A stretch of 64,000 bases of DNA from Pseudomonadota bacterium (lineage in GTDB: Bacteria; Desulfobacterota; Syntrophorhabdia; Syntrophorhabdales; Syntrophorhabdaceae), in NCBI GenBank assembly GCA_026388315.1, contig JAPLKA010000110.1:1-64000 (forward strand). The letters run 5' to 3'. The notes under the pieces are model-generated. The model was not told where the DNA came from. It ran no database searches and saw nothing but the letters and a program-made list of their open reading frames with translations. Position 1 is the stretch's first letter. Each line of letters starts with the position of its first letter. This document shows, in pieces, positions 11,081 to 64,000 of this stretch. Position numbers and translations under genes: made by a program.

Positions 11081-11866
11081 TTATTTTCCTTTCATGATGA
11101 AATCCACGAGCGATTCCGGTGTATATCCTGTCATGCCGCCATCCATGGTGAGGGTCTCACCATTTATGTATTGGGCGCCGTCAGAAGCAAGGAACAAGAT
11201 GCAGGACACAAATTCCTCAACCTTGGCCATCCTCCCGATAGGTGTCCTTTTTGAGAGGTAATCAACAAATATCTCTTTTCTGATAAGGCCCTCATTCATA
11301 CCGCCCTTTATAAAACCAGGAGCGATAGCACATAAGGTTACCCCGTGTTTTGACCATTCATAAGCCAGAGATCTTGTCATAAGCATTACTGCCGATTTAC
11401 TGATAGAATAGGGTAAAAAGCCTTTTTCTCCAAAGAGTGCTACCTGCGAGGCAACGCTGATGATCCGGCCTGATTTTTGCTCAATCATCTTTTTGCCAAA
11501 GATCTGTGTGACATAAAAGGTGCCTTTCAGGTTAACATCAATTACCTTGTCAAAATCAGCCTTTTTCATCTTTTCCGATGGGACAAGAGGGTTTACAACG
11601 CCGGCATTGTTAAAGAGTATATCTACTTTACCCCATGCTTCTATGGTCTTTCCCAGCACATTCTCCATCTCTTCGTAATTTGTAATATCAGCATGAAAGG
11701 CAAGGACAGGTTTTCCTTTAAACTCTTCCTCAAATTTTAATACGGCCTCTTTGTGTGTGCCGCACACAGCCACCCGTGCACCTTCTTCGAGAAATGCCAT
11801 TGCCGTTGCCTTCCCGAGGCCTTTTGCTCCGCCTGTTATGAATATAACTTTGTCTTTGAATTTCAT
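11081..11866 (-). CDS. short-chain dehydrogenase/reductase (FabG-like)
   Basis: A protein of 261 residues, classical SDR: cofactor motif TGGAKGLG near the N-terminus, NNAG at about 90, catalytic Ser and YSISK in the middle, and the C-terminal GETLTMDGGMTG. It should oxidise or reduce an alcohol/ketone with NAD(P)H; the substrate cannot be read from sequence. It overlaps the SPL-like gene by 4 bp (11863-11866). That neighbourhood gives no substrate hint. Confidence 0.88.
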   Translation of the reverse strand: MKFKDKVIFITGGAKGLGKATAMAFLEEGARVAVCGTHKEAVLKFEEEFKGKPVLAFHADITNYEEMENVLGKTIEAWGKVDILFNNAGVVNPLVPSEKMKKADFDKVIDVNLKGTFYVTQIFGKKMIEQKSGRIISVASQVALFGEKGFLPYSISKSAVMLMTRSLAYEWSKHGVTLCAIAPGFIKGGMNEGLIRKEIFVDYLSKRTPIGRMAKVEEFVSCILFLASDGAQYINGETLTMDGGMTGYTPESLVDFIMKGK

Positions 11867-12810
11867 ATGTTCCCTCCGTATAGGTTTTTTATTCTGTTAT
11901 CAAAGAGCCCAGTGAGGGCTTCATTATCCTCCAGTGTGAGGCCTGCAACACCTCTCCATATGTCTTCCCTTTCCATGCAGAGATATATAAAGAGATCTTC
12001 GTCCTGTCTTTTTAAAAGCCCGTAAAGCATGCTGTATATCTTCATCCGTTCTTTTTTTATGTATCGGTATTTCCCGTCTTCGCCCCTGATAAACTCCCCA
12101 TAAAGGAGGTTTTTTCTCCCTTCCTCCAGAAACCGGTCAAAAAGCCGTGGCGGGAATCTCAAGAGGCCGAGGCTTACCCACAGGACCTTTTTGAGATCAA
12201 GTATTCTGCCTATGTCTCCAATGAGATATTCATAGTCCTTCTCAAACCCCTCGTAAATAATAACGGGGTCGAAATGCAACCCGACAAAACACCCTGAATC
12301 CTGTGCCTTTTTTGCAGCCTTTAATCTTTTATAAAGAGGGCTTGTCCTTTTTTCTTCATTGTCAATTATCTTTTGAGGCGCAAGGGAAAATGAGATGACC
12401 GTATAAGGATTCAGGTATGGAACAAGATGATCAATGGATGCCCATTTGGATTTCAGCTCCAGGAGGGCCTTTTTTGTTTCACCGAAAAATTCTATGAGCG
12501 GTCGGTTAAGGCCGTATCTCCTGTCAAGGGCAAGACTATCCGAAAGTTCGCCGGTTCCAAATCTCAGGATATGTGTTTTTTCAGCCTCAATTGTCTCCTT
12601 TATCTGTGACAGGATGTATGGCATATCCCGGTTTATTTTGATATTCGGAGCATTGATGTATTCTTTGAGGATGCAGTAGGAACAGGAAAGAACACAACCC
12701 TCAATAAGATCAATCGTTTTGTAACCACAGCATATGTGATTTTTTGTGCCCGGGCAATTCCTTACGATGTTTCCCCTTGTTTCAACAAAATCAATCTTTT
12801 GCAAGCCCAA
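11863..12810 (-). CDS. spore photoproduct lyase-like radical SAM protein
   Basis: A protein of 315 residues. Near residue 40 it has the radical SAM cysteine motif CVLSCSYC (C-x3-C-x2-C), preceded by CPGTKNHICCGYKTID, the layout of the spore photoproduct lyase (SPL) family. SPL repairs thymine dimers in endospores with a 5'-deoxyadenosyl radical. Nothing else in the window points to sporulation, so the substrate may differ. Its start lies 20 bp inside the ParB-like gene and its stop overlaps the SDR by 4 bp. Confidence 0.78.
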   Translation of the reverse strand: MGLQKIDFVETRGNIVRNCPGTKNHICCGYKTIDLIEGCVLSCSYCILKEYINAPNIKINRDMPYILSQIKETIEAEKTHILRFGTGELSDSLALDRRYGLNRPLIEFFGETKKALLELKSKWASIDHLVPYLNPYTVISFSLAPQKIIDNEEKRTSPLYKRLKAAKKAQDSGCFVGLHFDPVIIYEGFEKDYEYLIGDIGRILDLKKVLWVSLGLLRFPPRLFDRFLEEGRKNLLYGEFIRGEDGKYRYIKKERMKIYSMLYGLLKRQDEDLFIYLCMEREDIWRGVAGLTLEDNEALTGLFDNRIKNLYGGNI

Positions 12811-13690
12811 ATATGCTCCTTATGTGTCCGGCATCAAAAACTCCGTTGAGTTTTAACAATGCCTCTCTGATTTCATCAGGGTTTTTTGCTCTTATAAGTA
12901 TATCAATATACTCCTTTTCGAAAAAAGGGTCTACTTTTATGTCTATATTAGGCGGGAGCGCACACTTGATTTTTATATCTTTTAACCCCTTTTCGAGTGA
13001 GGAGAGTATGGGGTATGTGAGATTTTTAAGCCTTGTTTTCAGGTCGTACGCATCGTCTGCTCCGACCATTATAGAGAAATCGATGGCACCGTTCCTCACT
13101 TTTATTAAATGGAGCATCCGGAGAATCTCGCGTATGGTGCTCTCTGTGGTGTGAAGAGGGGTAAGTATTCCAATTATTTGGTCTTTCTCCTCAGAGGTGA
13201 ATCGTAAAAGGGTTTCGATATTTTGCATTGAGAGGTCTTTTTTTAATATGAAATTTTTCATGGTCTCATCAGAACCTGCTATATCCCGGAGCCTCCCTGT
13301 GATCTTTTCGTGTCTGCTGAGGGAGAGCAGCGTCATTACATCGTACACCTCTTCCGTTGAAAAGACCATGTGCAGCATCTTTTCGATGCAGTTTGCCTTT
13401 TCAATAATATTCAGCGCCCGCCCCATATTGTCGTGGATGGAGCGGAGGAGGGCATCTTTTTCATCCATATTTACAATGATGCAGGGGATATGTGTAAGCC
13501 CCAGACGTAATGCAGCCTCGAGCCTTTTAAAGCCTGCAACAATCGTGTAGGGTGGCGGAGCGAGGAGTATCGGGGGCTGGATGATACCAATTTTTTTGAT
13601 GGATGCGAGGAGTATGCCGTCTTCAAGCGGATAAGATATACAAAATCTTTTGTCGCTGACGTTTATCCGGGTAATCGGTATGATTTGCAT
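12791..13690 (-). CDS. ParB-like N-terminal domain protein
   Basis: A protein of 299 residues. The first 90 residues match a ParB/Sulfiredoxin-type domain: ILLASIKKIGIIQPPILL, then VAGFKRLEAALRLG where chromosomal ParB has a GERR-type box. A central helical region could hold a helix-turn-helix (about 120-180). The C-terminal half is not recognised. No parA partner is adjacent, so this is probably not the segregation ParB. It may be a CTPase/nuclease-like regulator. It is coupled to the SPL-like gene by a 20-bp overlap. Confidence 0.7.
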   Translation of the reverse strand: MQIIPITRINVSDKRFCISYPLEDGILLASIKKIGIIQPPILLAPPPYTIVAGFKRLEAALRLGLTHIPCIIVNMDEKDALLRSIHDNMGRALNIIEKANCIEKMLHMVFSTEEVYDVMTLLSLSRHEKITGRLRDIAGSDETMKNFILKKDLSMQNIETLLRFTSEEKDQIIGILTPLHTTESTIREILRMLHLIKVRNGAIDFSIMVGADDAYDLKTRLKNLTYPILSSLEKGLKDIKIKCALPPNIDIKVDPFFEKEYIDILIRAKNPDEIREALLKLNGVFDAGHIRSIFGLAKD

Positions 13691-13702
13691 ATAACCTTTT
13701 GA

Positions 13703-15829
13703 CTAAGCCCCCACAACGGGAAGCTCAATGATGAACTTTGCACCTTCAGGAATGTTGTCTTCCACATATATTCGTCCATGGTGCTCCAGAATGATGGAAT
13801 GGACGATGGCGAGCCCGAGGCCCATGCCGTCCTTGTCCCTGGTAAAATAAGGGTCGAAAACCTTTCCCTTATCTTCATCGGCAACGCCGCTCCCATTGTC
13901 TGCTATCACAATAATGCCAACCCCCTTATCGGCATCAAATTTTGTGCTAATGGTGATGATGCCCTCTTTGTTGTTCAGCGCCTTTGCCGAATTGGTTATG
14001 AGGTTTATCATGGCCCTTTTTATCCCGTCTCTGTCCATCCGGAACATCGGGATGAGAGACTGCTCGAATCTGAACGTGATATTATGATAGAGGTTCTTAT
14101 ATATAGAGATTGTCTCTTCAAGAACGGAATTGATATCTTCGATGATCATTGTCTGCGAACTGTGTGTTAACTTTGTAAGTTCGTTGACTATCCCTTTTAT
14201 GTCTCCTACCGATTTGATTATGACCGATGTTGTCTCGTCGAGGATTTCCTTGTCGCTGTCTGTCATACGTGTAAGCAACCTTCGCCGTATTCTCTCTGCC
14301 GATAAGATGATGGGGGTCAGAGGGTTTTTTATCTCGTGGGTTAATTTTTTTGCTACCTCTCTCCATGTGGCAAGTTTTTCAGCCCGGACAACGTGTGTAA
14401 TATCGTCAAAAGTGATGATAAAGCCCTCTGTTTTGCTTGTATCATCTTTCAGGATTGTGAGAGAAGCCCTTATATATTTAATATCTTTTTGTAAATTAAG
14501 CCTCATATCCTTTGTAACGCTTCCGTCGCCCGTGCCTCTGGCTTCTTTCAGGAAAGACTTCATATATTTTTTAAAATCACCACCCAGAACTTCCTTCAGA
14601 GGCGTTCCTTCCAATGTTTCCTTTTCGACCCCGAGAATGTTCTGTGCTGCCTTATTCAGAAAAAGAATATCCCCCCTTTTGTCCGTAGATATGATCCCTG
14701 TTGTAACATTGTCGAGTATAATCTCCATATATCTTCTTTTTGCTTCAATCTCGTCTTTTGTTACCTTTAACTCTTTTGCCATGCTGTTAAAGGCGCTCAC
14801 CAGGGTTCCTATCTCATCCTTCCCTCTGTCTTCGAGGTTTACGTCAAATTTACCTTTTGCGATAATGGAGACACCTTCCTTCACCCTTTCGATGGGGATT
14901 GTTATCTCCGTAGCCATCTTTATCCCTACCCAGACACAAAAGAATATCGTCATAACGGTAATGAGGGACAGGGGTATATAAAAGCTGTATTTCAAAATCT
15001 TTTTAAATGCCCGGGATTCTTTGAATTCCTTGTGCGTGGAGGTTATCTCCTTTATTCTCGCTGTGCTTTGAATTTTTAGTATATCCCCCGTAAAGAGGAT
15101 AGCCTGAGTGTTACCGTATTCGTTCGGTATCCTCGTGCCGGCGACGATGATTTCCCCGTCTTTCATGGGGATTACTTCCCTTATTATGTTATCTTTTTTC
15201 AAGGCTGACTCTATTTTGCCGGAAAGCCTGCCGTCTATCCCTTGCGGAAGATTGCTTACAACTACATTACCGGAAAGATCGTGTACTGAGAAATATTCAT
15301 TGAGTTTTGCATATCTGTCGCTCCGGAGGTATGTGTTGAGTTCCTTTTCTTTTTCGAGAAGTTTTCTCTTGTCAATATTGCCTGCAAGCAACTTCCCGGT
15401 TTTTTCGTACCGTTGAAAGAGATCATCGTAATAGTAATGGGAAAGGATTAAGGCGCTGTCCATTGTGTCTTCAATCTTCTGTCCGAACCATTTGTCCATA
15501 CTTATATGGAAAAAACCTGTTGCAAGTATGGAGAGCGTAAAGGATGGTACAATGGAGATAATGAGCATTGTGACCGTTAATTTTGTTTTAAGACCGGAGC
15601 CCCATATTCCCCTCTTTTTTTCGATATATGCCTTAAAAAGTGTCCTCGTTATAAGGAAAATGAGGAGTAAAATCAAGAGGAGGTTGATATTTAATACGAT
15701 GACGATGAGTTTGTTTTCTTCAATGGGAAGGAATTTTTTAAAGAACGGGAGATGTGTCTCGAGGTAGATAAAAAGACCGAATATTAATAAAATCAGTGCA
15801 GAAAAAATCCATTCTTTTTTATATTTCAT
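13703..15829 (-). CDS. NtrY-like membrane sensor histidine kinase
   Basis: A protein of 708 residues. Transmembrane segments lie near 8-25, 38-62 and 85-110, followed by an extracytoplasmic sensor region and another membrane segment near 285-310. A HAMP domain (about 310-365), a PAS domain (about 375-485) and a kinase core complete the chain. The phosphoacceptor box reads THEIKNPLTP, the NtrY form; NLITNSAKAL, DNGSGV and GLGLAIV are the ATP-binding boxes. No response regulator is adjacent, so the partner (NtrX-like) is elsewhere. The stop lies 12 bp before the ParB-like gene. Confidence 0.9.
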   Translation of the reverse strand: MKYKKEWIFSALILLIFGLFIYLETHLPFFKKFLPIEENKLIVIVLNINLLLILLLIFLITRTLFKAYIEKKRGIWGSGLKTKLTVTMLIISIVPSFTLSILATGFFHISMDKWFGQKIEDTMDSALILSHYYYDDLFQRYEKTGKLLAGNIDKRKLLEKEKELNTYLRSDRYAKLNEYFSVHDLSGNVVVSNLPQGIDGRLSGKIESALKKDNIIREVIPMKDGEIIVAGTRIPNEYGNTQAILFTGDILKIQSTARIKEITSTHKEFKESRAFKKILKYSFYIPLSLITVMTIFFCVWVGIKMATEITIPIERVKEGVSIIAKGKFDVNLEDRGKDEIGTLVSAFNSMAKELKVTKDEIEAKRRYMEIILDNVTTGIISTDKRGDILFLNKAAQNILGVEKETLEGTPLKEVLGGDFKKYMKSFLKEARGTGDGSVTKDMRLNLQKDIKYIRASLTILKDDTSKTEGFIITFDDITHVVRAEKLATWREVAKKLTHEIKNPLTPIILSAERIRRRLLTRMTDSDKEILDETTSVIIKSVGDIKGIVNELTKLTHSSQTMIIEDINSVLEETISIYKNLYHNITFRFEQSLIPMFRMDRDGIKRAMINLITNSAKALNNKEGIITISTKFDADKGVGIIVIADNGSGVADEDKGKVFDPYFTRDKDGMGLGLAIVHSIILEHHGRIYVEDNIPEGAKFIIELPVVGA

Positions 15830-51719: not shown

Positions 51720-52169
51720 ATGCCCGAAGTTATTGAAGTGATCTTCGAGAAGTATCAACGTAAGCCGGATCAACTCATACCGATTCTTCAGAATGTTCAG
51801 AGGGAATTTGGCTACATCACTCCTGAATCAGTAAAACACATCTCCAGATACCTCCGTATTTCTGAAAACCAGATTTTTGGTGTCTCCTCCTTTTATGCCC
51901 AGTTTCGTTTCACTGCTCCGGGGCGCCATTCCGTAAGGGTATGTCTCGGAACAGCCTGTCATGTGAGAGGGGGTGCCACTTTGCTTGAAATGCTGGAGCG
52001 TGAATTGGAGATCGTTTGCGGGGAAACCACCCCGGACAGACGTTTCGACCTGGAGCGGGTTGCATGTCTTGGATGCTGCGCATTATCTCCTGTTGTTCAA
52101 ATTGATGCCGATATATACAGCAGAATGACCGTAAACAAATTATCGGAGCTATTAAAACAATATGAATAA
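51720..52169 (+). CDS. NuoE-like [2Fe-2S] subunit
   Basis: A protein of 149 residues with the thioredoxin-like fold. The [2Fe-2S] ligands are Cys75-x4-Cys80 (CLGTAC) and Cys116-x3-Cys120 (CLGCC). This is the NuoE/HndA/HydC type, the small partner of NuoF. Its stop overlaps the NuoF-like start by 8 bp. It opens the electron-transfer cluster. Confidence 0.93.
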   Translation: MPEVIEVIFEKYQRKPDQLIPILQNVQREFGYITPESVKHISRYLRISENQIFGVSSFYAQFRFTAPGRHSVRVCLGTACHVRGGATLLEMLERELEIVCGETTPDRRFDLERVACLGCCALSPVVQIDADIYSRMTVNKLSELLKQYE

Positions 52170-54042
52170 ACTAAAAAAGAAAATCACATCGGCAAAGAAG
52201 AAATGGGAAGGGATAGAGAACAATAAAGAGCCCATCGTCTATATTGGCGCTGCATCCTGCGGGAGGGCTGCCGGGGCGCTTGAGCTGATATCGGAGACTG
52301 AAAAGTTCATAAAAGAAAATAACATTTCTGCAAGGGTGATTCAGGTCGGGTGTATAGGCCCCTGCTACCTCGAGCCCCTTGTGGATATCAAGATGCCGGG
52401 ACAACCGAGGGTGAGCTACTCCAACGTGAATGTCAGAACGCTCAATAACATCTTGAAATCTCAATTGCTCGAAGGGGTTCCCTTTACAAAGGCCGCTATT
52501 GGTAATTTCGGGAGCAGCGCCTTCAACGGTATACCTCCCTTTTATGAACTCCCCATGTTGAAACCCCAGGTGAGGATCGTACTCAGAAACTGCGGTCTTA
52601 TTGACCCTGAGGATATTGACCAGTATCTTGCCATGGAAGGCTATCAGGGTTTGATGAATGCCTTAGAGATGTCCCCTGAGGATGTTATAGGTGTTGTCCG
52701 CCAGGCTGGCATCCGGGGCAGGGGAGGCGCAGGATTCCCGACCTTTAAAAAATGGACTGTCTGCAGGAATACACCCGGTGAGCAAAAATATCTGATCTGC
52801 AATGCCGACGAAGGCGACCCCGGTGCGTTCATGAACAGGTCACTCATCGAGTCTGACACCCATGCGGTGCTTGAAGGCATGATGATTGCCGGATATGCCA
52901 TAGGGGCAAGCAAAGGCATTGTCTATATCAGGGCCGAATATCCCCTTGCTATAGAGAGATTGAAGACTGCCATAAAACAGATGAAGGAATACGGACTCCT
53001 CGGAAAAAATATTCTCGGGTCAACATTCAATTTTGATATAACGATAAAAGAGGGGGCAGGCGCCTTTGTATGTGGCGAAGAGACAGCCCTTATCGCATCC
53101 ATTGAAGGCAAGAGGGGTATGCCCCGTTCACGTCCGCCGTTTCCGGCTATATCGGGTCTTTTCGGATGCCCCACAATCATCAACAATGTGGAAACGCTCG
53201 GAACGCTCCCCAACATCCTGCGGAACGGCGCCGAGTGGTACAACAGATTCGGCAAGGAAGGAAACAGGGGGACCAAGACATTCTCATTAGTCGGAAAGAT
53301 ACGCCGCACTGGTCTTATTGAAGTCCAGCTCGGCACAACGTTGAGGGAGATCATATTTGATATCGGCGGAGGTGTGCAGAAACCTTTTAAGGCGATACAG
53401 ACAGGAGGGCCCTCCGGCGGATGCCTGTCTGAAGAATTCCTCGACCTTGCCGTAGACTATGAATCGCTTGCATCGGCAGGCTCGATTATGGGTTCCGGCG
53501 GCCTCATCATCATGGACGAAGATACCTGTGTCGTTGATGTAGCGAAATATTTCCTCGATTTTACACAGAAGGAATCATGCGGCAAATGCATACCGTGCCG
53601 TGTGGGAACGAGGCATATGGTGGAGATATTGGAGAGGATAACCCACGGTGAAGGTGTTCCTGAAGACCTGCTAACATTAAGGACACTGGGCGACACGATC
53701 AAAAAAGGTTCGCTCTGCGGCCTTGGTCAGACAGCCCCTAATCCGGTTCTTACGACGCTCAGGTATTTCAGGAATGAATATCTGGAACACATCAAGGATG
53801 GCCTATGCAGGGCTGTTGTCTGTAAAGACCTTATCGAGTACCGTGTGATAAAAGAGAAATGCACAGGGTGTCAATCCTGTGTGAAGGCTTGTCCCACAGG
53901 GGCAATATCGGGACCGAGATCAGAACCGCACAATCTTGATAAGACAAAATGTATCAAGTGCCGTTCCTGCTATGAAATCTGCCGTTTTGAAGCCATTGCC
54001 GGCGATGCTATCGTTATTAGGACTGCGGAGAAGAGATCATGA
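52162..54042 (+). CDS. NuoF-like NADH-oxidising flavoprotein with FeS domains
   Basis: A protein of 626 residues. An N-terminal [2Fe-2S] thioredoxin-like domain (about 1-110, with AASCGRAAG and GCIGPCYLEP) precedes the NuoF core with GRGGAGFP and FKKW (NADH/FMN), NADEGDPGAFM and GAGAFVCGEETALI. The 4Fe-4S motif CGKCIPCRVGT follows, and two ferredoxin motifs close the chain (CTGCQSCVKACP, CIKCRSCYEIC). This is the layout of HndC/HydB subunits of electron-bifurcating enzymes. It overlaps the next gene by 4 bp. Confidence 0.93.
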   Translation: MNKLKKKITSAKKKWEGIENNKEPIVYIGAASCGRAAGALELISETEKFIKENNISARVIQVGCIGPCYLEPLVDIKMPGQPRVSYSNVNVRTLNNILKSQLLEGVPFTKAAIGNFGSSAFNGIPPFYELPMLKPQVRIVLRNCGLIDPEDIDQYLAMEGYQGLMNALEMSPEDVIGVVRQAGIRGRGGAGFPTFKKWTVCRNTPGEQKYLICNADEGDPGAFMNRSLIESDTHAVLEGMMIAGYAIGASKGIVYIRAEYPLAIERLKTAIKQMKEYGLLGKNILGSTFNFDITIKEGAGAFVCGEETALIASIEGKRGMPRSRPPFPAISGLFGCPTIINNVETLGTLPNILRNGAEWYNRFGKEGNRGTKTFSLVGKIRRTGLIEVQLGTTLREIIFDIGGGVQKPFKAIQTGGPSGGCLSEEFLDLAVDYESLASAGSIMGSGGLIIMDEDTCVVDVAKYFLDFTQKESCGKCIPCRVGTRHMVEILERITHGEGVPEDLLTLRTLGDTIKKGSLCGLGQTAPNPVLTTLRYFRNEYLEHIKDGLCRAVVCKDLIEYRVIKEKCTGCQSCVKACPTGAISGPRSEPHNLDKTKCIKCRSCYEICRFEAIAGDAIVIRTAEKRS

Positions 54043-56345
54043 CAAAAGAAAAGACAATCCAAATCACAATCGACAACAAAAAGGTAGATGCCCGGCCGAA
54101 TCAGACCATATTGCAGGCCGCACGGGAACATCAGATCTATATTCCCTCTTTGTGTGCCATGGAACATTTATCTTCCTACGGCGCGTGCCGTCTTTGTGTG
54201 GTAGAGGTGGACGGTTTAAGGGGCTTCCCTACATCATGCACCACACCTGTTGAAGAGGGGATGGTTATCCGCACTGACACTGCTGAAGTGAAGAGCCTGC
54301 GGCAGGAAGTGCTTAAACTGCTCCTGAGCGAACACCCGGCAAGCTGTCTCTTCTGTACCGAACAGGATGAATGTAAACAGTATATGGGGACAATACGCAA
54401 AGTGGGTGCAACGACAGGGTGCCGATACTGTCCCAACGATCATCGTTGCGAACTTCAGCAGATTGCAGAGAATATCGGTTTGACGGAGACTTCATATCCC
54501 GTCTATTACCGCAATTTTCCTGTTGAAAAATATGACCCCTTCTATGACCGTGATTATAACCTCTGCATCCTGTGCGGGCGTTGTGTCCGTGTCTGCAACA
54601 ACGTACGTCTCAACGGCACACTGAGCTTCAAGCAGCGCGGAAGGGTGACCACCATAGGCCCTGCCTTTGATCGCTCCCATATTGATGCCGGGTGCGAGTT
54701 CTGCGGCGCCTGCGTTACGGCATGCCCCACAGGGGCTTTAAGCGTAAAGGTAAGCAAATGGTACGGAAAGCCGGAAGGACAGGTCGCAACGACCTGCAAT
54801 TATTGCTCTGCAGGGTGCAGGTTAATCCTCCAGACGACGAAAACCGATGTCATAGATGCCCTGCCAGATTACGATTCGGCAGTGGAGCACGGTATTATCT
54901 GTGTAAAAGGGAGGTTTGGAATCACTGAATATGTTCACAGTCCACTCCGCTATGGCACACCCAAAGAAATGACGTCAGCAGGATACAATGATATATCCTG
55001 GGAAGAGGCTATCGCAAAAGCTGCCGGGAAATTATCAGGTCTGAAACCCGATGATTGCCTGATTGTGGTTTCACCGCAACTCCTGAATGAGGATCTTTTT
55101 ATAGCGCAGCAGTTTATAAGGCAGGTCACAGGCTCTGAAGAAGTAGCATCATCCTTTATCTTTGACCTTGATGGAGATGCTGCATCTTTCATAAATCTGG
55201 CCCTTGCCTCTGAGCCCTTTGAAACAATTGAAAAGGCGCAGGGCATCCTGGCCGTTGGTTTTGATTCTACCTATGGCTATTCCCCTATCGGGGTAAAGGC
55301 CAAACAGGCCGCCCAGGCAGGAGCCTCTCTAATGAGTCTCAATTCCTTTGAATCCAACCTTGATCTTCTCTCAGGGATGGCCTTTGTTGTAGATTCATCG
55401 AGATGGGCCGATGTGTTAGACCTCACGATGAGCCGCATGTCAAAAGGTAAGGCGGAGAAACGTTTTGCCGACCTTATGGAGATGTGGGGGAGTGACATTG
55501 ATAAGACATGCGAAACATTCTCCCGTTCATCACATAATGTACTGATTGTGGGACCAGGGATCATCGATTCACCTGACAGGGGAAAGATTCTGAGAAGCAT
55601 TGAAAGAATGAAAAATGAGTACTCATGGAAGGTTGTCGTTGCCCATCAATATACAAACCTCGCAGGGATGTTTGCAATGGGCGCCTGTCCGGGCATTAAA
55701 CCGGGCGAAATGATTAAAGAGGCTTCAGCAGACAAGGCCGTAGTTATCAAGGCTGAACTGATACATATTGACCTCAGGAAAAAACGGAAACTCATTTACC
55801 TTATTGGCGATGCTTCTTTTGATTCCCTTCCTGAATGCGAGTTCCTCATTTACCAGAACGCACTGCCTCCACAATGTTCCCGTCAACCTGATTTAATACT
55901 CCCGGTGAGTCTTTTCACCGAGGCATCGGGGACGGTTATCAGTGCTGAAGGAAGGGTTTTGCAGGTGAAAGAGGCGGTAGCACCGTACATGGATTCAAAG
56001 CCTGACTGGTGGATATTGAAGAGTATTGCCGAAAAGATGAGCAAGGGAAAGATGAAGTTCAATGATGTGTCTTCAATCCAGGGGGAGATTAAAAAAATAA
56101 TAAAAGGGTTCCCCGCCGTGAAAAAGCGGATTGAATTCAAGCAAATTGAGGTAAAGGGCAATGTTAAGACCCACGGGAAGGGGAAACCTGCAGCATGGAA
56201 AAGTAGTTACAGGGGCATACCCCTCGGGGAGGTTGTATCGGGAATAAAGGTCATAGAGTTAAATAGCACGCACAGTGTGCGAGAGAGGGTGGCCGGGTAC
56301 CCCGCTTGCGGGTGTCCCAGTGATGCCGTGATGCGTGATCGGTGA
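54039..56345 (+). CDS. NuoG-like FeS/molybdopterin-fold subunit with a repeat-derived C-terminus
   Basis: A protein of 768 residues. An N-terminal [2Fe-2S] domain (CAMEHLSSYGACRLC), a His-Cys-type 4Fe-4S site (HPASCLFCTEQDEC), two 4Fe-4S motifs (CILCGRCVRVC, CEFCGACVTACP), then a molybdopterin-type fold beginning CNYCSAGCRL. The fold is short and no catalytic Cys/Sec of formate dehydrogenases was found, so it is probably an electron-conducting NuoG/HymC type. The native end appears to be near GVVSGIKVIE; the last 26 residues (from about 743) come from repeat A4 and a heptad tract. Confidence 0.87.
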   Translation: MTKEKTIQITIDNKKVDARPNQTILQAAREHQIYIPSLCAMEHLSSYGACRLCVVEVDGLRGFPTSCTTPVEEGMVIRTDTAEVKSLRQEVLKLLLSEHPASCLFCTEQDECKQYMGTIRKVGATTGCRYCPNDHRCELQQIAENIGLTETSYPVYYRNFPVEKYDPFYDRDYNLCILCGRCVRVCNNVRLNGTLSFKQRGRVTTIGPAFDRSHIDAGCEFCGACVTACPTGALSVKVSKWYGKPEGQVATTCNYCSAGCRLILQTTKTDVIDALPDYDSAVEHGIICVKGRFGITEYVHSPLRYGTPKEMTSAGYNDISWEEAIAKAAGKLSGLKPDDCLIVVSPQLLNEDLFIAQQFIRQVTGSEEVASSFIFDLDGDAASFINLALASEPFETIEKAQGILAVGFDSTYGYSPIGVKAKQAAQAGASLMSLNSFESNLDLLSGMAFVVDSSRWADVLDLTMSRMSKGKAEKRFADLMEMWGSDIDKTCETFSRSSHNVLIVGPGIIDSPDRGKILRSIERMKNEYSWKVVVAHQYTNLAGMFAMGACPGIKPGEMIKEASADKAVVIKAELIHIDLRKKRKLIYLIGDASFDSLPECEFLIYQNALPPQCSRQPDLILPVSLFTEASGTVISAEGRVLQVKEAVAPYMDSKPDWWILKSIAEKMSKGKMKFNDVSSIQGEIKKIIKGFPAVKKRIEFKQIEVKGNVKTHGKGKPAAWKSSYRGIPLGEVVSGIKVIELNSTHSVRERVAGYPACGCPSDAVMRDR

Positions 56346-56450
56346 CGCGTGACAGGTAAATATGACGTAAGCCTTTAGCACGCACAGCGTGCGAGAGGGG
56401 AAGTCTCTTCGGGCTTTGCTCGAAGAGGGGGCGACGTGAGCCCCAGTGAT
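56264..56450 (+). repeat. repeat family A, copy A4 (two half copies with a GTGATNN tract between)
   Basis: First half (about 56266-56330): GCACGCacaGTGTGCGAGAG and a variant tail. Heptads GTGATGC GTGATCG GTGACGC GTGACAG follow (about 56323-56357). Second half (about 56377-56450): GCACGCacaGCGTGCGAGAG, the hairpin TCTTCGGGCT/GCTCGAAGA and the core GAGGGGGCGACGTGAGCCCC. The first half and the heptads encode the tail of the NuoG-like protein; the second half lies in the leader of the next gene. Confidence 0.8.
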
Positions 56451-56465
56451 TGAAGGGAGGGTAAG

Positions 56466-57323
56466 ATGAACAAGATTATTGAACGTAAAATGATTGTTCC
56501 CAATATGCACCTTCTCACCCTTGAGGCGCCTGATATAGCTTCCAAGGTGAAACCGGGGCAGTTTGTCATTGTCCGGGCAAATGATGAGGGTGAGCGTATC
56601 CCCTTGTCTGTTGCTGACTGGGACGAAGAAAAGGGCACGGTTACCATTATCTTCATGGAGGTGGGTGCATCAACGGGCGCCCTCGCCTGCCTTGCTGCGG
56701 GGGATTCTGTGGCAACATGCGTTGGTCCGCTGGGAAATGAAACAGAGATAGGTAACTTCGGCACGGTCATGTGTGTAGGGGGTTGCTACGGCATCGGAAG
56801 CCTCTATCCTGTTGTAAAGGCGCTGAAAAAGGCCGGGAACAGGGTCATCATGGTCTTCGAGGCCAGGAGCAATTATCTCATTTACTGGGTTGATAAATAT
56901 ATCAAATTGGCTGATAAGATTTTCAATGTTACGCGGGATGGAAGCCTTGGTTTGAAGGGGCACATAAGCCGTCTGCCGGACATCATCAACGGCCTGCCCA
57001 ACCCTCCCGACAGGGTCATCGTAAACGGGTGTACCTTTCTCATGGCCCGCACATCGGAGATGACAAGGGACCCTAGCATCCCGACGGTTGTGAATCTTAA
57101 CCCTATAATGATTGATGGTACAGGGATGTGCGGCGTCTGTCGTGTCACAATAAACGGGAAAATGAAGTTTGCATGTGTCGATGGTCCTGAATTTAGCGGT
57201 CATGAAGTGGATTGGAAGGAATTTCTCTCTCGCAGAAAGGCTTATCTCGAGGAAGAAGTGCTCTTTTTCAGGCGCAGTGAACCAAAACAGGCAGTCCATA
57301 AAGAGGGGAAGTGTCAAGCATGA
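56466..57323 (+). CDS. NfnA-like FAD/[2Fe-2S] subunit, divergent copy
   Basis: A protein of 285 residues. Flavodoxin-reductase fold with the FAD segment RIPLSVAD. The glycine-rich nucleotide motif is altered: GGCYGIGS here against GGGVGVAP in the second copy at 63156. The [2Fe-2S] segment DGTGMCGVCRV...FACVDGPEF is intact, with the Asp and three Cys expected of NfnA. The NADH-binding part may have lost its role. A GGAGGG site precedes the start. It overlaps the NfnB-like gene by 13 bp. Confidence 0.88.
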   Translation: MNKIIERKMIVPNMHLLTLEAPDIASKVKPGQFVIVRANDEGERIPLSVADWDEEKGTVTIIFMEVGASTGALACLAAGDSVATCVGPLGNETEIGNFGTVMCVGGCYGIGSLYPVVKALKKAGNRVIMVFEARSNYLIYWVDKYIKLADKIFNVTRDGSLGLKGHISRLPDIINGLPNPPDRVIVNGCTFLMARTSEMTRDPSIPTVVNLNPIMIDGTGMCGVCRVTINGKMKFACVDGPEFSGHEVDWKEFLSRRKAYLEEEVLFFRRSEPKQAVHKEGKCQA

Positions 57324-58741
57324 ATCCTGAAAAAACTGAAAAAACATCAAAAATCGATTTGAACCGTAATGATATGCCGAGACAGTCTCCTGAAATTCGG
57401 CGTCATAATTTCAACGAAGTGGCCCTCGGCTACACGGAGGAAATTGCCGTTAAAGAAGCAAAGCGGTGCTTGCAATGCAAGAAGCCGAAGTGTAAAACGG
57501 GCTGTCCCGTGGAGATCGATATTCCTGATTTTATTTCCTGCATTGTGAAAGGAGATTTTTCATCAGGGATTAAGAAGCTTAAAGAGAAGAACTGTCTCCC
57601 CGCTGTCTGCGGAAGGGTCTGCCCTCAGGAGGCACAGTGTGAATCGCAGTGTATCCTTGCGAATAAAAAGGGAGAGGTGGCCATCGGAAGACTGGAGAGG
57701 TTCCTTGCCGACTGGGAAGCAAAGGAGGGGAAGGTTGATATACCCACCAAGGCAAAGCCCACCGGTAAAAAGATTGCTATTGTCGGTTCCGGCCCTGCAG
57801 GGGTTACCGTAGCAGGCGACCTGATACTTCTCGGCCATGAAGTGACCATATTTGAGGCGCTCCATAAGGCGGGAGGGGTTCTCGTTTACGGAATTCCCGA
57901 ATTTCGTCTTCCCAAGGCAATCGTTGCCAGAGAAGTTGACTATATAAGGCAACTGGGCGCAAAGGTGATAACAGACTATGTTGTCGGCAAGACGCGTTCG
58001 ATAGACGAATTATTGAAGGAATTTGATGCCGTGTTTGTCGGCACAGGTGCGGGACTTCCATGGTTTATGGATATACCGGGGGAGAATTTGAATGGTGTCT
58101 ATTCGGCGAATGAGTACCTTACCCGTATGAACCTTATGAGGGGATACCAGTTTCCCATGTCATCCACCCCGGTAAAGAAGCATGTCAGGGTGGCCGTTGT
58201 CGGGGGCGGCAATGTTGCCATGGACTCTGCACGGACAGCGCTCCGCATGGGCGCAGATGAGTCAAGGATTATTTACAGGCGGTCTCATGCAGAACTGCCT
58301 GCCAGGCTTGAAGAGAGTGAGAACGCCGAGGAAGAAGGTGTAATCTTCAACATGCTTACCCTGCCGGTTAGATACATCGGTGATGAAAACGGCTGGCTCA
58401 AAGAGATTGAGTGTCTCAAAATGGAACTGGGAGAGCCTGACGCATCAGGGAGGAGGCGGCCCATCGAGATACCGAATTCGAATTTTCGTATGGAGATGGA
58501 TGCAGTAGTCTGCGCCATCGGAAACAGCCCGAACCCGCTGGTACCGTCCACTACACCAGGTCTCCAGACAACACGTCGCGGGACGCTTGTGGCCGATCAG
58601 GAGACAGGAAAGACTACGAAAGAGCGTGTCTGGGCAGGCGGGGATATTGTGACAGGTGCAGCGACAGTTATCCTTGCCATGGGTGCGGGGAGAAAGGCGG
58701 CCCGCTCAATCCACGAATACCTCGAAACCGGGAAGTGGTAA
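57311..58741 (+). CDS. NfnB/GltD-like FAD-dependent NADPH oxidoreductase subunit
   Basis: A protein of 476 residues. An N-terminal 2x[4Fe-4S] domain (CLQCKKPKCKTGCP and CGRVCPQEAQCESQC), the FAD-binding IVGSGPAGVTVAG and the NADPH-binding VVGGGNVAMDSARTALRMG. In Nfn, this subunit bifurcates electrons between NADPH, ferredoxin and the NAD site of NfnA. Length and order fit NfnB. It sits after the divergent NfnA-like gene; the stop is followed by a 302-bp gap. Confidence 0.91.
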   Translation: MSSMNPEKTEKTSKIDLNRNDMPRQSPEIRRHNFNEVALGYTEEIAVKEAKRCLQCKKPKCKTGCPVEIDIPDFISCIVKGDFSSGIKKLKEKNCLPAVCGRVCPQEAQCESQCILANKKGEVAIGRLERFLADWEAKEGKVDIPTKAKPTGKKIAIVGSGPAGVTVAGDLILLGHEVTIFEALHKAGGVLVYGIPEFRLPKAIVAREVDYIRQLGAKVITDYVVGKTRSIDELLKEFDAVFVGTGAGLPWFMDIPGENLNGVYSANEYLTRMNLMRGYQFPMSSTPVKKHVRVAVVGGGNVAMDSARTALRMGADESRIIYRRSHAELPARLEESENAEEEGVIFNMLTLPVRYIGDENGWLKEIECLKMELGEPDASGRRRPIEIPNSNFRMEMDAVVCAIGNSPNPLVPSTTPGLQTTRRGTLVADQETGKTTKERVWAGGDIVTGAATVILAMGAGRKAARSIHEYLETGKW

Positions 58742-59043
58742 GGGGAGAACCAATTTAGAATTAAGAATTTTCTCAATCGGTACCTTACCGAAAAAGAAAT
58801 TGAAGAGCAATAGCCGATAACTAATATCCACATTCCAAAGTAATTAACATGCTGATAGTGTTTGTATTTGGACATTGGCCATTGGAATTTGCAGTTCTGT
58901 CTGGTTATTTGAAATTGGTTATTGAAATTTGTTTGTAAATTGTACATATTATCACAAGCATAAATTATCAATACACAGGTGTTGTTGACAAAAGGTCTTT
59001 ATTCGTTTAACATAACAATATCTCATAGGTTATTTGAATTTAC
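58742..59043 (+). other. 302-bp intergenic stretch with heptad tract
   Basis: No gene is seen. It contains AATTAAGAATTT words (about 58758-58775) and a heptad tract GGACATT GGCCATT GGAATTT followed by GGTTATT TGAAATT GGTTATT GAAATTT (about 58868-58932). Sequence before 59044 (TTGTTGACAAAAGG at about 58982) may include a -35 box TTGACA (58985-58990) without a clear -10 box. Confidence 0.6.
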
Positions 59044-61173
59044 ATGGAACGGGCAAAGGTAGAAAAAGAAAGCGTGTATTTTCCTCACGGGGACTCCCGC
59101 GAAATTACCGTCAATCGCAGCAAGTGCAGGAAATGTTCTTATTGTATCCAGATATGTCCTGCAAAGGCTATCCAGCTGGGAAAAGAGAGCATAAAAATTC
59201 TCCCGGAACGTTGTATCCTCTGTGGAAGCTGCATCACATCCTGCCCACAACAAGCCCTCGATTATAAAAGTGCCCTTGACAAGGTAAGGGGGCTTCTGGC
59301 AACTAACGAAAAAACCATAGCCTGCCTTGACCCAGCCTTCCCGGTGGTTCTCGATGTCGGAACCCCCAGGCAACTGGTAACAGCCTTGAAAAATGCAGGA
59401 TTTACCGAGGTGTGGGAAGGGGCCTTTGGTGCCGAACTGGTAAGCCAGGCATATAGAAAGCTCCTCACCGACAATATTGACAGACCCTTAATATCATCGT
59501 TCTGCCCGGTTATTGTTACTTACATACAGAAATACCTCCCCCAGCTTATCCCAAATATTGCGCCCATTGTATCACCGATGATTGCTATCGGAAGGATTGC
59601 CCGTGAAATAAAGGGCCCGGACTGGAAGGTCATCTATATAACACCCTGTTTGGCGCAGATGAGAGAGATGGTGACCCCTGAAGCTGCCGGTGCTATCGAT
59701 GATGTGATTACATTCCGCGATGTGCGACAATTGCTTGATGGCGGAGGGATAAACAGCGCTGACCTGGCGGAGACAGATTTTGATGGTCCTAAGCCATTTC
59801 TTGGAAGAGTTATATCCGTCATAGGCGGGTTATACCGGAGTACCGGTGCACTCTTTGATATATTGATGGATGAAATCAGCGTAACCTATGGGCACAAAAG
59901 GGTTATAGGGGCGCTCAACCAGCTGGCATCAGGACACATACAGCCCAAGTTTCTCGATTTTGTGTATTGTTTCGGTTGTGTAGACGGTCCTTTTGCGGAC
60001 CGTGAATTGTCTGTCCTCGGCCGCAGGCAGCTTGTAGTCCGTTATGCGAAGGATGAAATGAGCCGTCAGGATGTTTCAAAGGTTACTGCTGAATTGGACC
60101 GTTTTGAACATGTTGATCTGCACCGTGACTTTTCCAGTATGGAGGAGAAACTCCCCACTCCCACAGAAGAAGAAATTAGGGCGATCCTGAAAAGGATTGG
60201 CAAACTCCCCCCGAATCATAACATGGATTGTCGGGCTTGTGGTTATCCGACATGTAGGGATAAGGCTATTGCCGTTGCCCAGGGAATAGCAGAGGCTGAA
60301 TACTGCCTCCCCTATCTGCTTGAACAGAGCAAAAAAATCTACCAGCAGCTCAAAAAATCGCATAGTCAGTTACAAATCTCACACCAGGAGCTTGAGCAGG
60401 CACAGGCACACCTCCTTAGGACAGAAAAGCTTGCATCCCTTGGCCAGCTCTCTGCAGGCGTTGCCCATGAGATTAATAACCCTCTTGGAACAATCATGAT
60501 ATATGCCCATCTTCTCCTGAAGGGCCTTGATAAAGAGGACCCCAGGAGAGAGGATTTAGAATTGATCATCAGCGAAGCGAACAGGGCTAAAGAGATCGTT
60601 CAGGGTCTTTTAAGCTTTGCCCGTGAGACAAAACTTCGTCAGGGCCAGATGAATGTAAATGATTTGCTCGAAGATGTGCTTGGCCTTATTGTCAATCAAT
60701 CACTGTTTCACAATATTAAAATGGAAAAATCCTTTGCCCAGGACATGCCGACCATCATTGCTGATGAAACGAAACTGAAACAGGTTTTTCTCAATATTAT
60801 CTTAAATGCAGCACAAGCCATGGAAGGAAATGGAAAATTGACAATCAGCACAATAATTGATAAAAAACGGATTAAGATTAAGATTCAGGATACTGGTCCC
60901 GGTATTCCCCCGGAGATTATGGGCAAACTTTTTTCCCCATTTTTTACGACAAAGGAGAAAGGGACGGGCCTTGGACTTGCAATTTCATATGGTATTGTCG
61001 AACGTCATGGCGGTAAGATTGACGTAAACTCAGAGTTGGGCAAAGGAAGTACTTTTACTATTTCTTTACCAATCTCTACCGATGAGGAAGGGGCAAAGGA
61101 AGAAACACATCTAAATAGATTATCGTTTCAAAATAAAATTACAGGGAGAAGGAACTATGGGCAAAAAAACTAA
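59044..61173 (+). CDS. sensor histidine kinase with ferredoxin and iron-hydrogenase-like domains
   Basis: A protein of 709 residues. Two ferredoxin 4Fe-4S motifs (Cys28/31/34/38 and Cys57/60/63/67), an iron-hydrogenase large-subunit-like domain (about 75-350), a small FeS domain (Cys396, 399, 404, 421, in MDCRACGYPTC), a coiled linker and a kinase core with His475 (AHEINNPLG) and GTGLGLAISYG. Hydrogenase motifs are degraded: SSFCPV for TSCCPxW, TPCLAQMRE for MPCxxKxxE and YCFGCVDGP for the third motif. It is therefore probably a redox or H2 sensor, not a hydrogenase. It overlaps the receiver gene by 17 bp. Confidence 0.88.
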   Translation: MERAKVEKESVYFPHGDSREITVNRSKCRKCSYCIQICPAKAIQLGKESIKILPERCILCGSCITSCPQQALDYKSALDKVRGLLATNEKTIACLDPAFPVVLDVGTPRQLVTALKNAGFTEVWEGAFGAELVSQAYRKLLTDNIDRPLISSFCPVIVTYIQKYLPQLIPNIAPIVSPMIAIGRIAREIKGPDWKVIYITPCLAQMREMVTPEAAGAIDDVITFRDVRQLLDGGGINSADLAETDFDGPKPFLGRVISVIGGLYRSTGALFDILMDEISVTYGHKRVIGALNQLASGHIQPKFLDFVYCFGCVDGPFADRELSVLGRRQLVVRYAKDEMSRQDVSKVTAELDRFEHVDLHRDFSSMEEKLPTPTEEEIRAILKRIGKLPPNHNMDCRACGYPTCRDKAIAVAQGIAEAEYCLPYLLEQSKKIYQQLKKSHSQLQISHQELEQAQAHLLRTEKLASLGQLSAGVAHEINNPLGTIMIYAHLLLKGLDKEDPRREDLELIISEANRAKEIVQGLLSFARETKLRQGQMNVNDLLEDVLGLIVNQSLFHNIKMEKSFAQDMPTIIADETKLKQVFLNIILNAAQAMEGNGKLTISTIIDKKRIKIKIQDTGPGIPPEIMGKLFSPFFTTKEKGTGLGLAISYGIVERHGGKIDVNSELGKGSTFTISLPISTDEEGAKEETHLNRLSFQNKITGRRNYGQKN

Positions 61174-61561
61174 AATCTTACTTGTTGACAACGATGTAGA
61201 TTTTATCGACCTCAACAAGGCAGTCCTCGAAAACAGTGGATTTGAGGTAGCCGTTGCATTTGCTGGCCGGGAAGTAATGGACAAGGTCAAATTTGAGCAG
61301 CCGGATTTAATTGTCCTTGACCTTATGATGGAAAAGCATGATACGGGTTTTGGTGTTGCAAAGGCGTTGAAGGCAGACCCGGTTTACAGAGACATACCGA
61401 TTTTGATGCTTACTGCAGTGTTGGGTGAAACCGGTATGGATTTTAATCAGGACCTCGATGGTTACTGGATGAAGACGGATTCTTTTGCAAACAAGCCGCT
61501 GTCGCCTGAAGAGTTGATAAAGAGAATCAATGAACTGCTGGCCAGGAATAAATCGGCTTAA
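61157..61561 (+). CDS. stand-alone response regulator receiver
   Basis: A protein of 134 residues with the receiver fold: LLVDNDVDFIDL (acidic pocket), phospho-acceptor in LIVLDLMM, Thr in MLTAVLG and Lys in FANKPLSPEE. No output domain. The start is inside the sensor kinase gene with a GGGAGAAGG site, so it is the likely phosphate acceptor. The TAA stop lies in a nonamer tract. Confidence 0.92.
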   Translation: MGKKTKILLVDNDVDFIDLNKAVLENSGFEVAVAFAGREVMDKVKFEQPDLIVLDLMMEKHDTGFGVAKALKADPVYRDIPILMLTAVLGETGMDFNQDLDGYWMKTDSFANKPLSPEELIKRINELLARNKSA

Positions 61562-61595
61562 TCGGTTCGAACGGCTTAATCGGCTTGAACAATTA
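61558..61595 (+). repeat. nonamer tract CGGCTTAAT
   Basis: CGGCTTAAT CGGTTCGAA CGGCTTAAT CGGCTTGAA, period 9. It overlaps the receiver stop codon and fills the gap to the next gene. It resembles the tract at 44057-44101 read on the other strand. Confidence 0.78.
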
Positions 61596-61617
61596 AAATT
61601 TTAACCGAGGGTCTGAA

Positions 61618-63111
61618 TTGAGTGAAACGATACATATTTTAGTTGTTGATGACGAGAAGGGTATCCGTGAGGGGTGCCGCCGGATTCTTATCAGTGAAGG
61701 CTACTCGGTAGATGTGGGCAGCAACGGCAAGGAAGGTCTTGAATTAGCAAAGGCAAAACAGTATGACCTTTTGCTTGTGGATCTGATGATGCCTATAATG
61801 GGTGGCATTGAGTTGATGGGACAGGTAAGACAACTCGATCCCGAAATCATTATGATCGTTGTAACGGGTTTTGCCACAATTGAAACAGCAGTTGATGCAA
61901 TGAGGCATGGCGCTTATGACTATGTCCCCAAACCCTTTACCCCGGACCAGTTGCTTGCAGTAGTAAACCGTGGTCTGGAAAAACGCAGATTAAGTCAACA
62001 GGCGCGACGGCTTATGGAGGAGAGGGACCAGAAACTCCTCGAAGTGGCAAACGAAAAGTCAAAACTCCATACGATTGTGAGTTCTATAGCCGACGGAATC
62101 CTTGTCATCAACAGAGAACATCAGCTTGTATTGTGGAACCCTGCAGCTATAAAGATGTTAAACTTCAGCGGGCAATCAGAGGCAGGGAAAGAAATAAGCA
62201 AAATCATCCCCGAGAAGGATCTGATTAAGATTATTGACAAAGGTTTCAGCCCTGAATCATCCCAGTACACTACCATCTCTGAAGAGATTGTACTGCCTCC
62301 CCCCGGCAAGAAGACAATAATGGTAAATGTCTCCAAGGTGAGGGATGAAACAGGCAAAGACCTCGGTGTTGTGAGCACATTAAGTGATATTACGGTCCTC
62401 AAAGAGATAAACGAAATCAAATCCCAGTTTGTTGCCATGGTAACCCATGAATTGCGGGCCCCTCTTTCAGCCATTGAGGGTTATCTTTCTGCCTATCTTA
62501 CAGGTGCGGCCGGGAGTGACCCCAAGATGTACCAGCAGATGATGGAACGTGCAAAACAACGGGCGCACTCACTGCTTGATCTGGTAAATGACCTTCTCCA
62601 ATACAGCAGGTTGGAGTCGAAAAGTGTAGCAAGGAAAAAAGAACTCCTTGATATTTCAGACATCATTACCGGTACTGTTGAGTTGTTGAAAGGCCAGGGG
62701 GCAGCAAAGGATATTCGATTTGAGGTTAATATCCCGGGGCCGCTCCCTCTTACTGAGGCAGACAGGGCAGAAATTGAGCAACTCTTCACTAATCTTGTTT
62801 CAAATGCGATTAAATACAATGTGAAAAATGGCAAGGTGGTTGTTAATGCTCAGTCTGATAGCCATTTTTTGAACATCACTGTGGCTGATACAGGGATCGG
62901 GATTGATGAGGAGAGCCTGCCCTGTGTATTTGATGAGTTTTACAGGGTATGCGGACCGGAAACGAGATATGTGACAGGAACGGGACTTGGTTTATCCATT
63001 GTAAAAAAGATTGTGGAATCACATTTCGGTCACATAAAAGTTGACAGCAAGCCGGGCAAAGGCACCACCTTTACGGTCATGTTGCCGATTAAACAGGATA
63101 AAAATAAATGA
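61618..63111 (+). CDS. hybrid receiver-PAS-histidine kinase
   Basis: A protein of 497 residues with a TTG start after GAGGGT. Receiver domain (1-125, Asp in LLLVDLMMP, Lys in PKPFTPDQ), a coiled linker, a PAS domain (about 145-255) and a kinase core with His in VTHELRAPLSA and GTGLGLSIVKK. It can receive phosphate at the receiver and sign on by its own kinase, so it could be the next step of the relay. No DNA-binding output is seen. NfnA copy 2 follows after 44 bp. Confidence 0.92.
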   Translation: MSETIHILVVDDEKGIREGCRRILISEGYSVDVGSNGKEGLELAKAKQYDLLLVDLMMPIMGGIELMGQVRQLDPEIIMIVVTGFATIETAVDAMRHGAYDYVPKPFTPDQLLAVVNRGLEKRRLSQQARRLMEERDQKLLEVANEKSKLHTIVSSIADGILVINREHQLVLWNPAAIKMLNFSGQSEAGKEISKIIPEKDLIKIIDKGFSPESSQYTTISEEIVLPPPGKKTIMVNVSKVRDETGKDLGVVSTLSDITVLKEINEIKSQFVAMVTHELRAPLSAIEGYLSAYLTGAAGSDPKMYQQMMERAKQRAHSLLDLVNDLLQYSRLESKSVARKKELLDISDIITGTVELLKGQGAAKDIRFEVNIPGPLPLTEADRAEIEQLFTNLVSNAIKYNVKNGKVVVNAQSDSHFLNITVADTGIGIDEESLPCVFDEFYRVCGPETRYVTGTGLGLSIVKKIVESHFGHIKVDSKPGKGTTFTVMLPIKQDKNK

Positions 63112-63155
63112 ATTCCGGGATACCGGAATCCCTAAATTTAATAAAAGGAGATATC

Positions 63156-64000
63156 ATGGCAAAAGAACCAAAAATGAATGAAATCGTTGAAAAACGGCAG
63201 TTAGCACCTTCAGTCACACTTTTTAAGCTCTATGTACCCGATATTGCGAAAAAGGCCAAACCCGGGCAGTTTGTGGTGTTGAGGGTCGATGATTATGCAG
63301 AAAGAATACCGCTCACCATCGCTGATTTCAACCGGGAAGAAGGTCTGGTTACGGTTATTTTTCAGGTAGTGGGAACGTCAACACAAAAAATGGACAAGTT
63401 TGAACAGGGTCAGACGGTTCTGGATGTGGTGGGACCACTCGGAAAACCCAGTCACATCGAAAAGTTCGGGACAGTTATTTGTGTCGGCGGCGGCGTTGGT
63501 GTTGCCCCTGTGTATCCCATTGCAAAGGCCCTCTATGAAAAAGGAAATGAGGTTATTAACATTATCGGTGCGCGTACAAAAGAGATGTTGATCCTCGAAG
63601 AAGAGATGAAGGCGATAAGCAGTGAATTGTTTGTGACCACAGACGATGGAACATATGGCCATCATGGCTTTGTTACAGATGTGCTGAAAAAGCTCATCGC
63701 AGAAAAGAAAAAAATCGACCTCGTTATCGGGATTGGGCCGGTAATCATGATGAAAGCTGTCGTGGAAGTGACCCGCCCCCACAACATACATACAGTGGTA
63801 AGCCTTAACACAATCATGGTTGATGGCACTGGCATGTGCGGTTGCTGCCGTGCCACCGTTGGCGGAGAAACCAAGTTTGTTTGTGTCGATGGTCCTGAAT
63901 TTGACGGCCATAAAGTTGAATTCAACGAGTTGATACTCCGTGGAAAAATGTATAACAGGGAAGAACGCCGTGCCATGTGGGATCACAAGTGCAAACTCGA
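63156..64000 (+). CDS. NfnA-like FAD/[2Fe-2S] subunit, canonical copy (cut by window end)
   Basis: Open from the ATG at 63156 to the window edge, 281 codons. An AAGGAG site lies 5 bp upstream. RIPLTIADF (FAD), the canonical nucleotide motif GGGVGVAPVYP and the [2Fe-2S] segment DGTGMCGCCRA...FVCVDGPEF are present. It resembles the copy at 56466 over its full length but keeps the NAD-site residues. The NfnB partner of this copy, if separate, should lie just beyond the window. Confidence 0.93.
   Translation, partial: MAKEPKMNEIVEKRQLAPSVTLFKLYVPDIAKKAKPGQFVVLRVDDYAERIPLTIADFNREEGLVTVIFQVVGTSTQKMDKFEQGQTVLDVVGPLGKPSHIEKFGTVICVGGGVGVAPVYPIAKALYEKGNEVINIIGARTKEMLILEEEMKAISSELFVTTDDGTYGHHGFVTDVLKKLIAEKKKIDLVIGIGPVIMMKAVVEVTRPHNIHTVVSLNTIMVDGTGMCGCCRATVGGETKFVCVDGPEFDGHKVEFNELILRGKMYNREERRAMWDHKCKL

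Follow-up and report, generated by a model that had tools for sequence, protein, structure and literature searches.

Histidine kinase-linked [FeFe]-hydrogenases make up group C1 of HydDB, where they are listed with an undetermined role and the remark that they may sense H2 (PMC5037454). Physiological evidence for the sensory hydrogenases of groups C and D is thin, and their role is called putative (PMC8924675). These putative sensory groups also lack C299, the first hydrogenase cysteine, and still turn over H2 (PMC8163306, PMC10407848). In group A, alterations near the active site frequently prevent the H-cluster from forming (PMC10407848). The subject of the present analysis is a sensor histidine kinase and its operon in a 64,000-nucleotide stretch (the window) of contig C110, part of a 3.80-Mb draft genome of a Syntrophorhabdaceae bacterium. 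Like group C1 proteins, this sensor couples two [4Fe-4S] motifs, a hydrogenase domain (H-domain) and a C-terminal iron-sulfur (FeS) domain to a histidine kinase, and the architecture as such is already known. Unlike group C1, it has lost both C299 and K358, the lysine of the PCxxK motif that holds a cyanide ligand of the [2Fe] subcluster; its partner is the electron-bifurcating transhydrogenase Nfn; and it is retained in genomes without the hydrogenase HydA or the maturases HydE, HydF and HydG (HydEFG). The sensor probably derives from group C1, works independently of H2 and has only [4Fe-4S] clusters; most likely it reports the redox state of ferredoxin and is tied to Nfn. That it does not sense H2 can be held with considerable confidence, and ferredoxin is the signal we favour with moderate confidence. 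A literature search with little coverage of subscription journals returned no account of an H-domain kinase that is tied to Nfn or retained in the absence of HydEFG.

Whether sensor-bearing genomes could build an H-cluster was addressed by profile searches for Fe_hyd_lg_C, HydE, HydF and HydG (the hydrogen INDEPENDENCE test). A new observation from these searches is that the sensor is kept as the sole Fe_hyd_lg_C protein, with no HydE, HydF or HydG over the cut-off, in seven genomes: G005, G016, G007, G010, G014 and G029, which are 96-99% complete, and G041 (79%). Assembly gaps are a poor explanation for the missing hydrogenase and maturase genes, because when the probability of losing them as one island (an approximation) is set equal to the incompleteness of each genome, the chance of at least 6 island-less genomes among the 20 sensor genomes of at least 96% completeness is about 3e-6, and that of at least 7 among all 35 sensor genomes about 0.0016. 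The H-domain in maturase-free genomes is under purifying selection, the ratio of nonsynonymous to synonymous substitution rates (dN/dS) being about 0.14 between G005 and G016 and about 0.10 between G007 and G010, a pair whose synonymous sites are near saturation. Since this selection persists without hydrogenase or maturases, the function of the H-domain appears to need its cysteines and not the [2Fe] site; and because the sensor is kept without hydrogenases and the machinery for that site, it probably reads the redox state of ferredoxin rather than H2.

By Pfam the sensor contains two Fer4 domains (residues 22-75), Fe_hyd_lg_C (90-316; 132 bits, cut-off 22.1), the FeS domain PF04060 (394-423), HisKA (466-528) and HATPase_c (574-677), with a coiled coil between the Cx2Cx4Cx16C FeS motif and the kinase core. 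Open reading frames (ORFs), Pfam and orthologues in about 35 genomes thus bear out a preliminary description of this DNA, which had recognised a kinase with two ferredoxin clusters, a hydrogenase-like domain and a third FeS motif. Neither the sequence nor the Pfam result showed a transmembrane stretch, and the sensor is predicted to be soluble and cytosolic. It is present in 35 of 44 genomes surveyed from the window's order (split over two contigs in G025), as full-length orthologues of 62-95% identity, a degree of conservation well outside chance; the closest named relatives carrying the gene are Syntrophorhabdaceae/'Deltaproteobacteria' metagenome-assembled genomes (MAGs) from sediments and digesters. 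Across 34 aligned orthologues 16 of 16 cluster cysteines are invariant, including C154, C202, C309 and C312 at the cubane and bridge positions of the H-cluster; the preliminary description had not mentioned that these four are intact. The C299 position is occupied by Phe in 33 and Val in one, and the K358 position by Gln (15), Arg (11) or His (8) and never by Lys, which is kept in hydrogenase-linked relatives. In the window protein these residues are F153 (SSFCPV) and Q205 (TPCLAQ), the two substitutions already noticed. The pairing of invariant cysteines with loss of C299 and K358, seen in this alignment, is new. The earlier suggestion that the H-domain binds a simple FeS cluster instead of an H-cluster gains weight from the maturase-free genomes, the retained cysteines and the lost K358 and C299, whereas the invariance of all 16 cysteines speaks against its alternative, no cluster at all.

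H475 and the nucleotide-binding boxes are invariant in a 28-row full-length alignment. An AlphaFold2 model of the sensor part only was built from 52 diverse alignment rows (predicted local distance difference test score, pLDDT, 90; predicted template modelling score 0.90); its best PDB matches are [FeFe]-hydrogenases (E 7e-23, template modelling score about 0.7). This model replaced a weak one of the full-length protein from 28 close orthologues (pLDDT 66). TamHydS and TmHydS share with the sensor the two N-terminal 4Fe-4S motifs, an H-domain without C299 and a Cx2Cx4Cx16C cluster with a preceding Asp (the invariant D395 here, D378 in TamHydS). Both carry an H-cluster and catalyse H2 turnover, as the sensor probably does not, and they have neither a kinase fusion nor a link to Nfn; TmHydS also has a PAS domain, which the sensor lacks. 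In TamHydS, H2 at 1 atm leaves the C-terminal cluster oxidised, whereas a stronger reductant does reduce it (PMC13104023). By analogy, such behaviour would be a drawback in an H2 sensor and would fit a ferredoxin gauge.

The invariant partner of the sensor is the fused Nfn gene downstream (Table 1). The order of sensor, lone receiver (RR1), receiver-PAS-histidine kinase (RR-PAS-HK) and fused NfnAB, which is new, is the same in 31 of 31 orthologous contexts. RR1 overlaps the sensor gene by 17 bp, as had been described together with the receiver-PAS-kinase that follows, and the start of the Nfn gene overlaps the stop of RR-PAS-HK by 4 bp, an overlap of a few bases that recurs in most contexts. 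The hallmarks of two-component signalling (H-box His, N and G boxes, receiver Asp/Thr/Lys) are present: D55 and K113 of RR1 are retained in 42 of 42, and in RR-PAS-HK the receiver residues and the H, N and G residues of the kinase are conserved. The Nfn protein scores 1129 bits against PRK12778 (cut-off 1103) and shows homology to each chain of the Thermotoga maritima Nfn structure, 4ylf (B, 8e-186; A, 2e-83). It is an NfnA-NfnB homologue as in NfnAB (PDB 4ylf) and StnABC (PMC10482914), and differs from both in being a single fused gene, co-operonic with a two-component cassette. NfnA/B-like genes do lie on both sides of the signalling genes, as first proposed, with the correction that the downstream pair is one fused gene and the upstream block is NuoE-NuoF-NuoG-like-NfnA-NfnB. 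That block is restricted to some genera of the family and, being missing from many contexts, was rejected as a general partner. Upstream of the sensor gene, 302 bp separate it from the NfnB gene, and a promoter-like element ending 31 bp 5' of the sensor start suggests a separate transcript for the signalling/Nfn cassette.

Table 1. Features of the sensor locus, in window coordinates
Feature	Position	Strand	Basis
NuoE, NuoF, NuoG-like, NfnA-like, NfnB-like block	51720..58741	+	Pfam; Stn/Bfu-like transhydrogenase
Sigma-70-like promoter, TTGACA-17-TAACAT	58985..59013	+	10/12 consensus match only
Sensor histidine kinase, 709 aa	59044..61173	+	ORF list, Pfam, orthologues
Two ferredoxin-type [4Fe-4S] motifs (C28, 31, 34, 38 / C57, 60, 63, 67)	59122..59268	+	Pfam; invariant, 34 orthologues
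H-domain (Fe_hyd_lg_C)	59311..59991	+	Pfam, alignment, AlphaFold2 model
C-terminal FeS motif CxxCx4Cx16C (C396, 399, 404, 421), PF04060	60223..60312	+	Pfam; invariant
Kinase core, HisKA (H475, AHEINNPL) and HATPase_c	60439..61074	+	Pfam
Lone receiver RR1, 134 aa (phospho-acceptor D55, K113)	61157..61561	+	Pfam Response_reg
Receiver-PAS-histidine kinase, 497 aa (D55, H277), TTG start	61618..63111	+	Pfam Response_reg-PAS-HisKA-HATPase_c
Fused NfnA-NfnB, 768 aa	63108..65414 (63108..64000 within window)	+	Whole gene read in locus L005

Smithella (L117) also has the four-gene cassette, as does a Fischerbacteria MAG (L126) with a sensor of 44% identity. In a KSB1 MAG (L116) a 1049-aa ORF (11418-14564) stands between RR-PAS-HK and a partial Nfn gene; RR1 alone follows the sensor on the stretch read from MAG L115, and Aminicenantes contig L148 stops after RR-PAS-HK. 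In the surveyed families no sensor orthologue with complete flanks lacks Nfn. The converse does not hold: G004, G019 and G042 have Nfn but no sensor, so the dependence is one-way.

A search of 297 genomes of the phylum together with a named collection placed the sensor in a wider family of sensors whose H-domain is combined with different outputs (kinase, sigma54 activator, PAS- or phosphatase-type). A new finding is that the sister lineage f22 keeps K358 (SSPCPA / PCIAKK) and has its signalling cassette next to HydABC. The f22 kinase gene lies directly 3' of HydABC (L153) and is followed by receiver and RR-PAS-HK genes; the cassette (L153, L155) thus has the same three signalling genes as the window, at about 37-45% identity, but differs in the retained lysine, the neighbouring bifurcating hydrogenase, the presence of HydG in the genomes and the absence of Nfn. 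HydABC adjoins the kinase only in this lineage. PAS- or phosphatase-type H-domain sensors (about 34% identity) also sit 3' of HydABC, and in Firmicutes sigma54 fusions that keep K358 sit 5' of it. The H-domain-sigma54 activators (L157-L164; L130, L131) have the same sensor part as the window protein and differ from it in their output, an AAA sigma54 activator with a helix-turn-helix domain, and in having no kinase and no Nfn. Those of f27, f49 and f84 (L157-L164) have likewise lost K358 (SSHCP / CIA[GA]K, with His at C299 and Gly or Ala at K358), have no adjacent hydrogenase, and come from eight genomes of 99-100% completeness in which no HydE or HydG over the cut-off and no other H-domain protein was found. 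They probably form a second H-cluster-free set of sensors, one with direct DNA-binding output (for example L158:7702-10122). RNase G and radical-SAM-like genes that recur beside the sigma54 fusions, recognised by eye from the reading frames and not by profile, were judged to be housekeeping neighbours and not targets. Support in a 55-row tree is 100/99 for the Nfn-linked clade and 100/100 for the K358-less sigma54 clade. Parsimony counts two changes for the loss of K358, and a single loss is also compatible with the data, since the approximately unbiased test does not reject one clade (p 0.365). HsfB-like H-domain proteins of 430-465 aa that keep K358 were seen at L171:2743-4137, L172:2847-4220, L173:2383-3720 and L174:1865-3157, and also in the window's own genome at L006:15415-16776. 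Their genes share a module with genes of RsbW-like kinase, PHP and HATPase type and occur as well in MAGs without HydE or HydG, where the proteins may likewise lack an H-cluster.

We propose that the sensor descends from histidine kinase-linked group C1 sensory [FeFe]-hydrogenases and that the [2Fe] half of the H-cluster is gone, so that the H-domain would hold an ordinary [4Fe-4S] cluster on C154, C202, C309 and C312. Reduced ferredoxin, or the co-operonic Nfn flavoprotein, would feed electrons to the two N-terminal clusters. From there they would travel by way of the H-domain cluster to the C-terminal cluster (Cx2Cx4Cx16C) beside the coiled coil, whose redox state would then drive or block autophosphorylation of H475. 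The phosphate would presumably pass to RR1 and/or to the receiver of RR-PAS-HK, the latter acting as second kinase tier. In the end the signal may tune the synthesis or activity of Nfn (NADH + 2 Fd(red) + 2 NADP+), and perhaps wider electron flow; RR1 could act directly on Nfn, and RR-PAS-HK could reach unlinked regulators. Since Nfn keeps NADH, NADPH and ferredoxin in balance, its operon is a sensible place for a kinase that reads ferredoxin. The earlier proposal that ferredoxin or NAD(P)H redox state is read is supported by the hydrogenase- and maturase-free genomes and the invariant Nfn partner. No output domain is encoded in the cassette, in line with the absence of DNA-binding output first described, and the Nfn enzyme itself is a possible target of the signal; Nuo is not a constant partner. 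Overall, the interpretation in the preliminary description is partly to largely supported.

Several points weigh against a ferredoxin sensor free of the H-cluster. The window's own genome and those of most relatives carry HydA and HydEFG, so that an H-cluster there stays formally compatible with genome content. Absence calls carry an error rate: HydA is found without HydG, and also without HydE, in G093, G244 and G334, either because the assemblies have gaps or because maturation takes an unusual path, and maturases were missed in the HydA-bearing genomes G020 (88% complete) and G011; single absences are thus unreliable, and it is the joint absence that counts. K358-keeping HsfB-like sensors also occur in maturase-less MAGs, so K358 alone is no clean marker, and its loss was rejected as sole proof of H-cluster loss. 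The input may be a low-potential donor other than ferredoxin, and no output gene was identified for the cassette. An ordinary group C1 protein, in which a complete H-cluster signals H2 to the kinase, would account for the hydrogenase and HydEFG of the window's genome, for the retained bridging C312 and for an architecture shared with sensory groups that turn over H2 without C299. This we regard as improbable given the purifying selection that keeps the sensor in hydrogenase- and maturase-free genomes, the loss of K358 throughout the orthologues and an operon partner that is Nfn and no hydrogenase.

Two further explanations are each unlikely, only slightly less so than an H2 sensor. Breakdown of the clusters by O2, nitric oxide (NO) or iron shortage, and not a reversible redox change, might switch the kinase: FeS proteins are known as gas sensors (PMC13104023), proteins with several [4Fe-4S] clusters are labile to O2 and NO, and the hosts are presumably strict anaerobes, to judge by their family. 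However, four clusters in series exceed what integrity sensing needs, and the invariant pairing with Nfn, and formerly with HydABC, both of them enzymes of ferredoxin and NAD(P), suggests a role in balancing electron carriers and not in stress. Alternatively, the sensor could dock on the fused Nfn and read its flavin or FeS state, or control it through RR1, with no part for free ferredoxin. The four-gene operon, whose Nfn gene overlaps that of the kinase in nearly every genome, and the lack of an encoded DNA-binding output would suit such contact, but the hydrogenase-linked sister cassette has no Nfn, which makes a shared soluble donor, for example ferredoxin, the simpler assumption.

What group C and D sensory hydrogenases sense is an open question, and this family would separate H2 chemistry from signalling. 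If the proposed ferredoxin sensor is correct, signalling can run on [4Fe-4S] clusters alone, with H2 chemistry removed and the FeS ligands and kinase kept; anaerobes would own a dedicated ferredoxin-redox two-component system that controls or accompanies an electron-bifurcating transhydrogenase; and genome and metagenome surveys that score this clade as H2-sensing hydrogenases would be wrong. A wider generalisation is, in our view, about as likely as not: there may be a class of 'hydrogenases without hydrogen', in which the [FeFe]-hydrogenase fold has lost its [2Fe] site and measures low-potential electron carriers in the cytosol quite generally. Such gauges, in operons with electron-bifurcating Nfn or fused to sigma54 activators, would persist in anaerobes without [FeFe]-hydrogenase, and many group C 'H2 sensors' would be ferredoxin sensors.

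Two minor observations concern the flanks of the cassette. The upstream block resembles a Stn/Bfu-type transhydrogenase in which two separate genes correspond to StnC; it also has an NfnA subunit that is absent from Stn. A frame 3' of the Nfn gene (L005:2999-3448) consists of near-identical repeats (GADSSVAPFTAGVPFGAALPGVVLA...) and is probably a repeat stretch and not a real protein.

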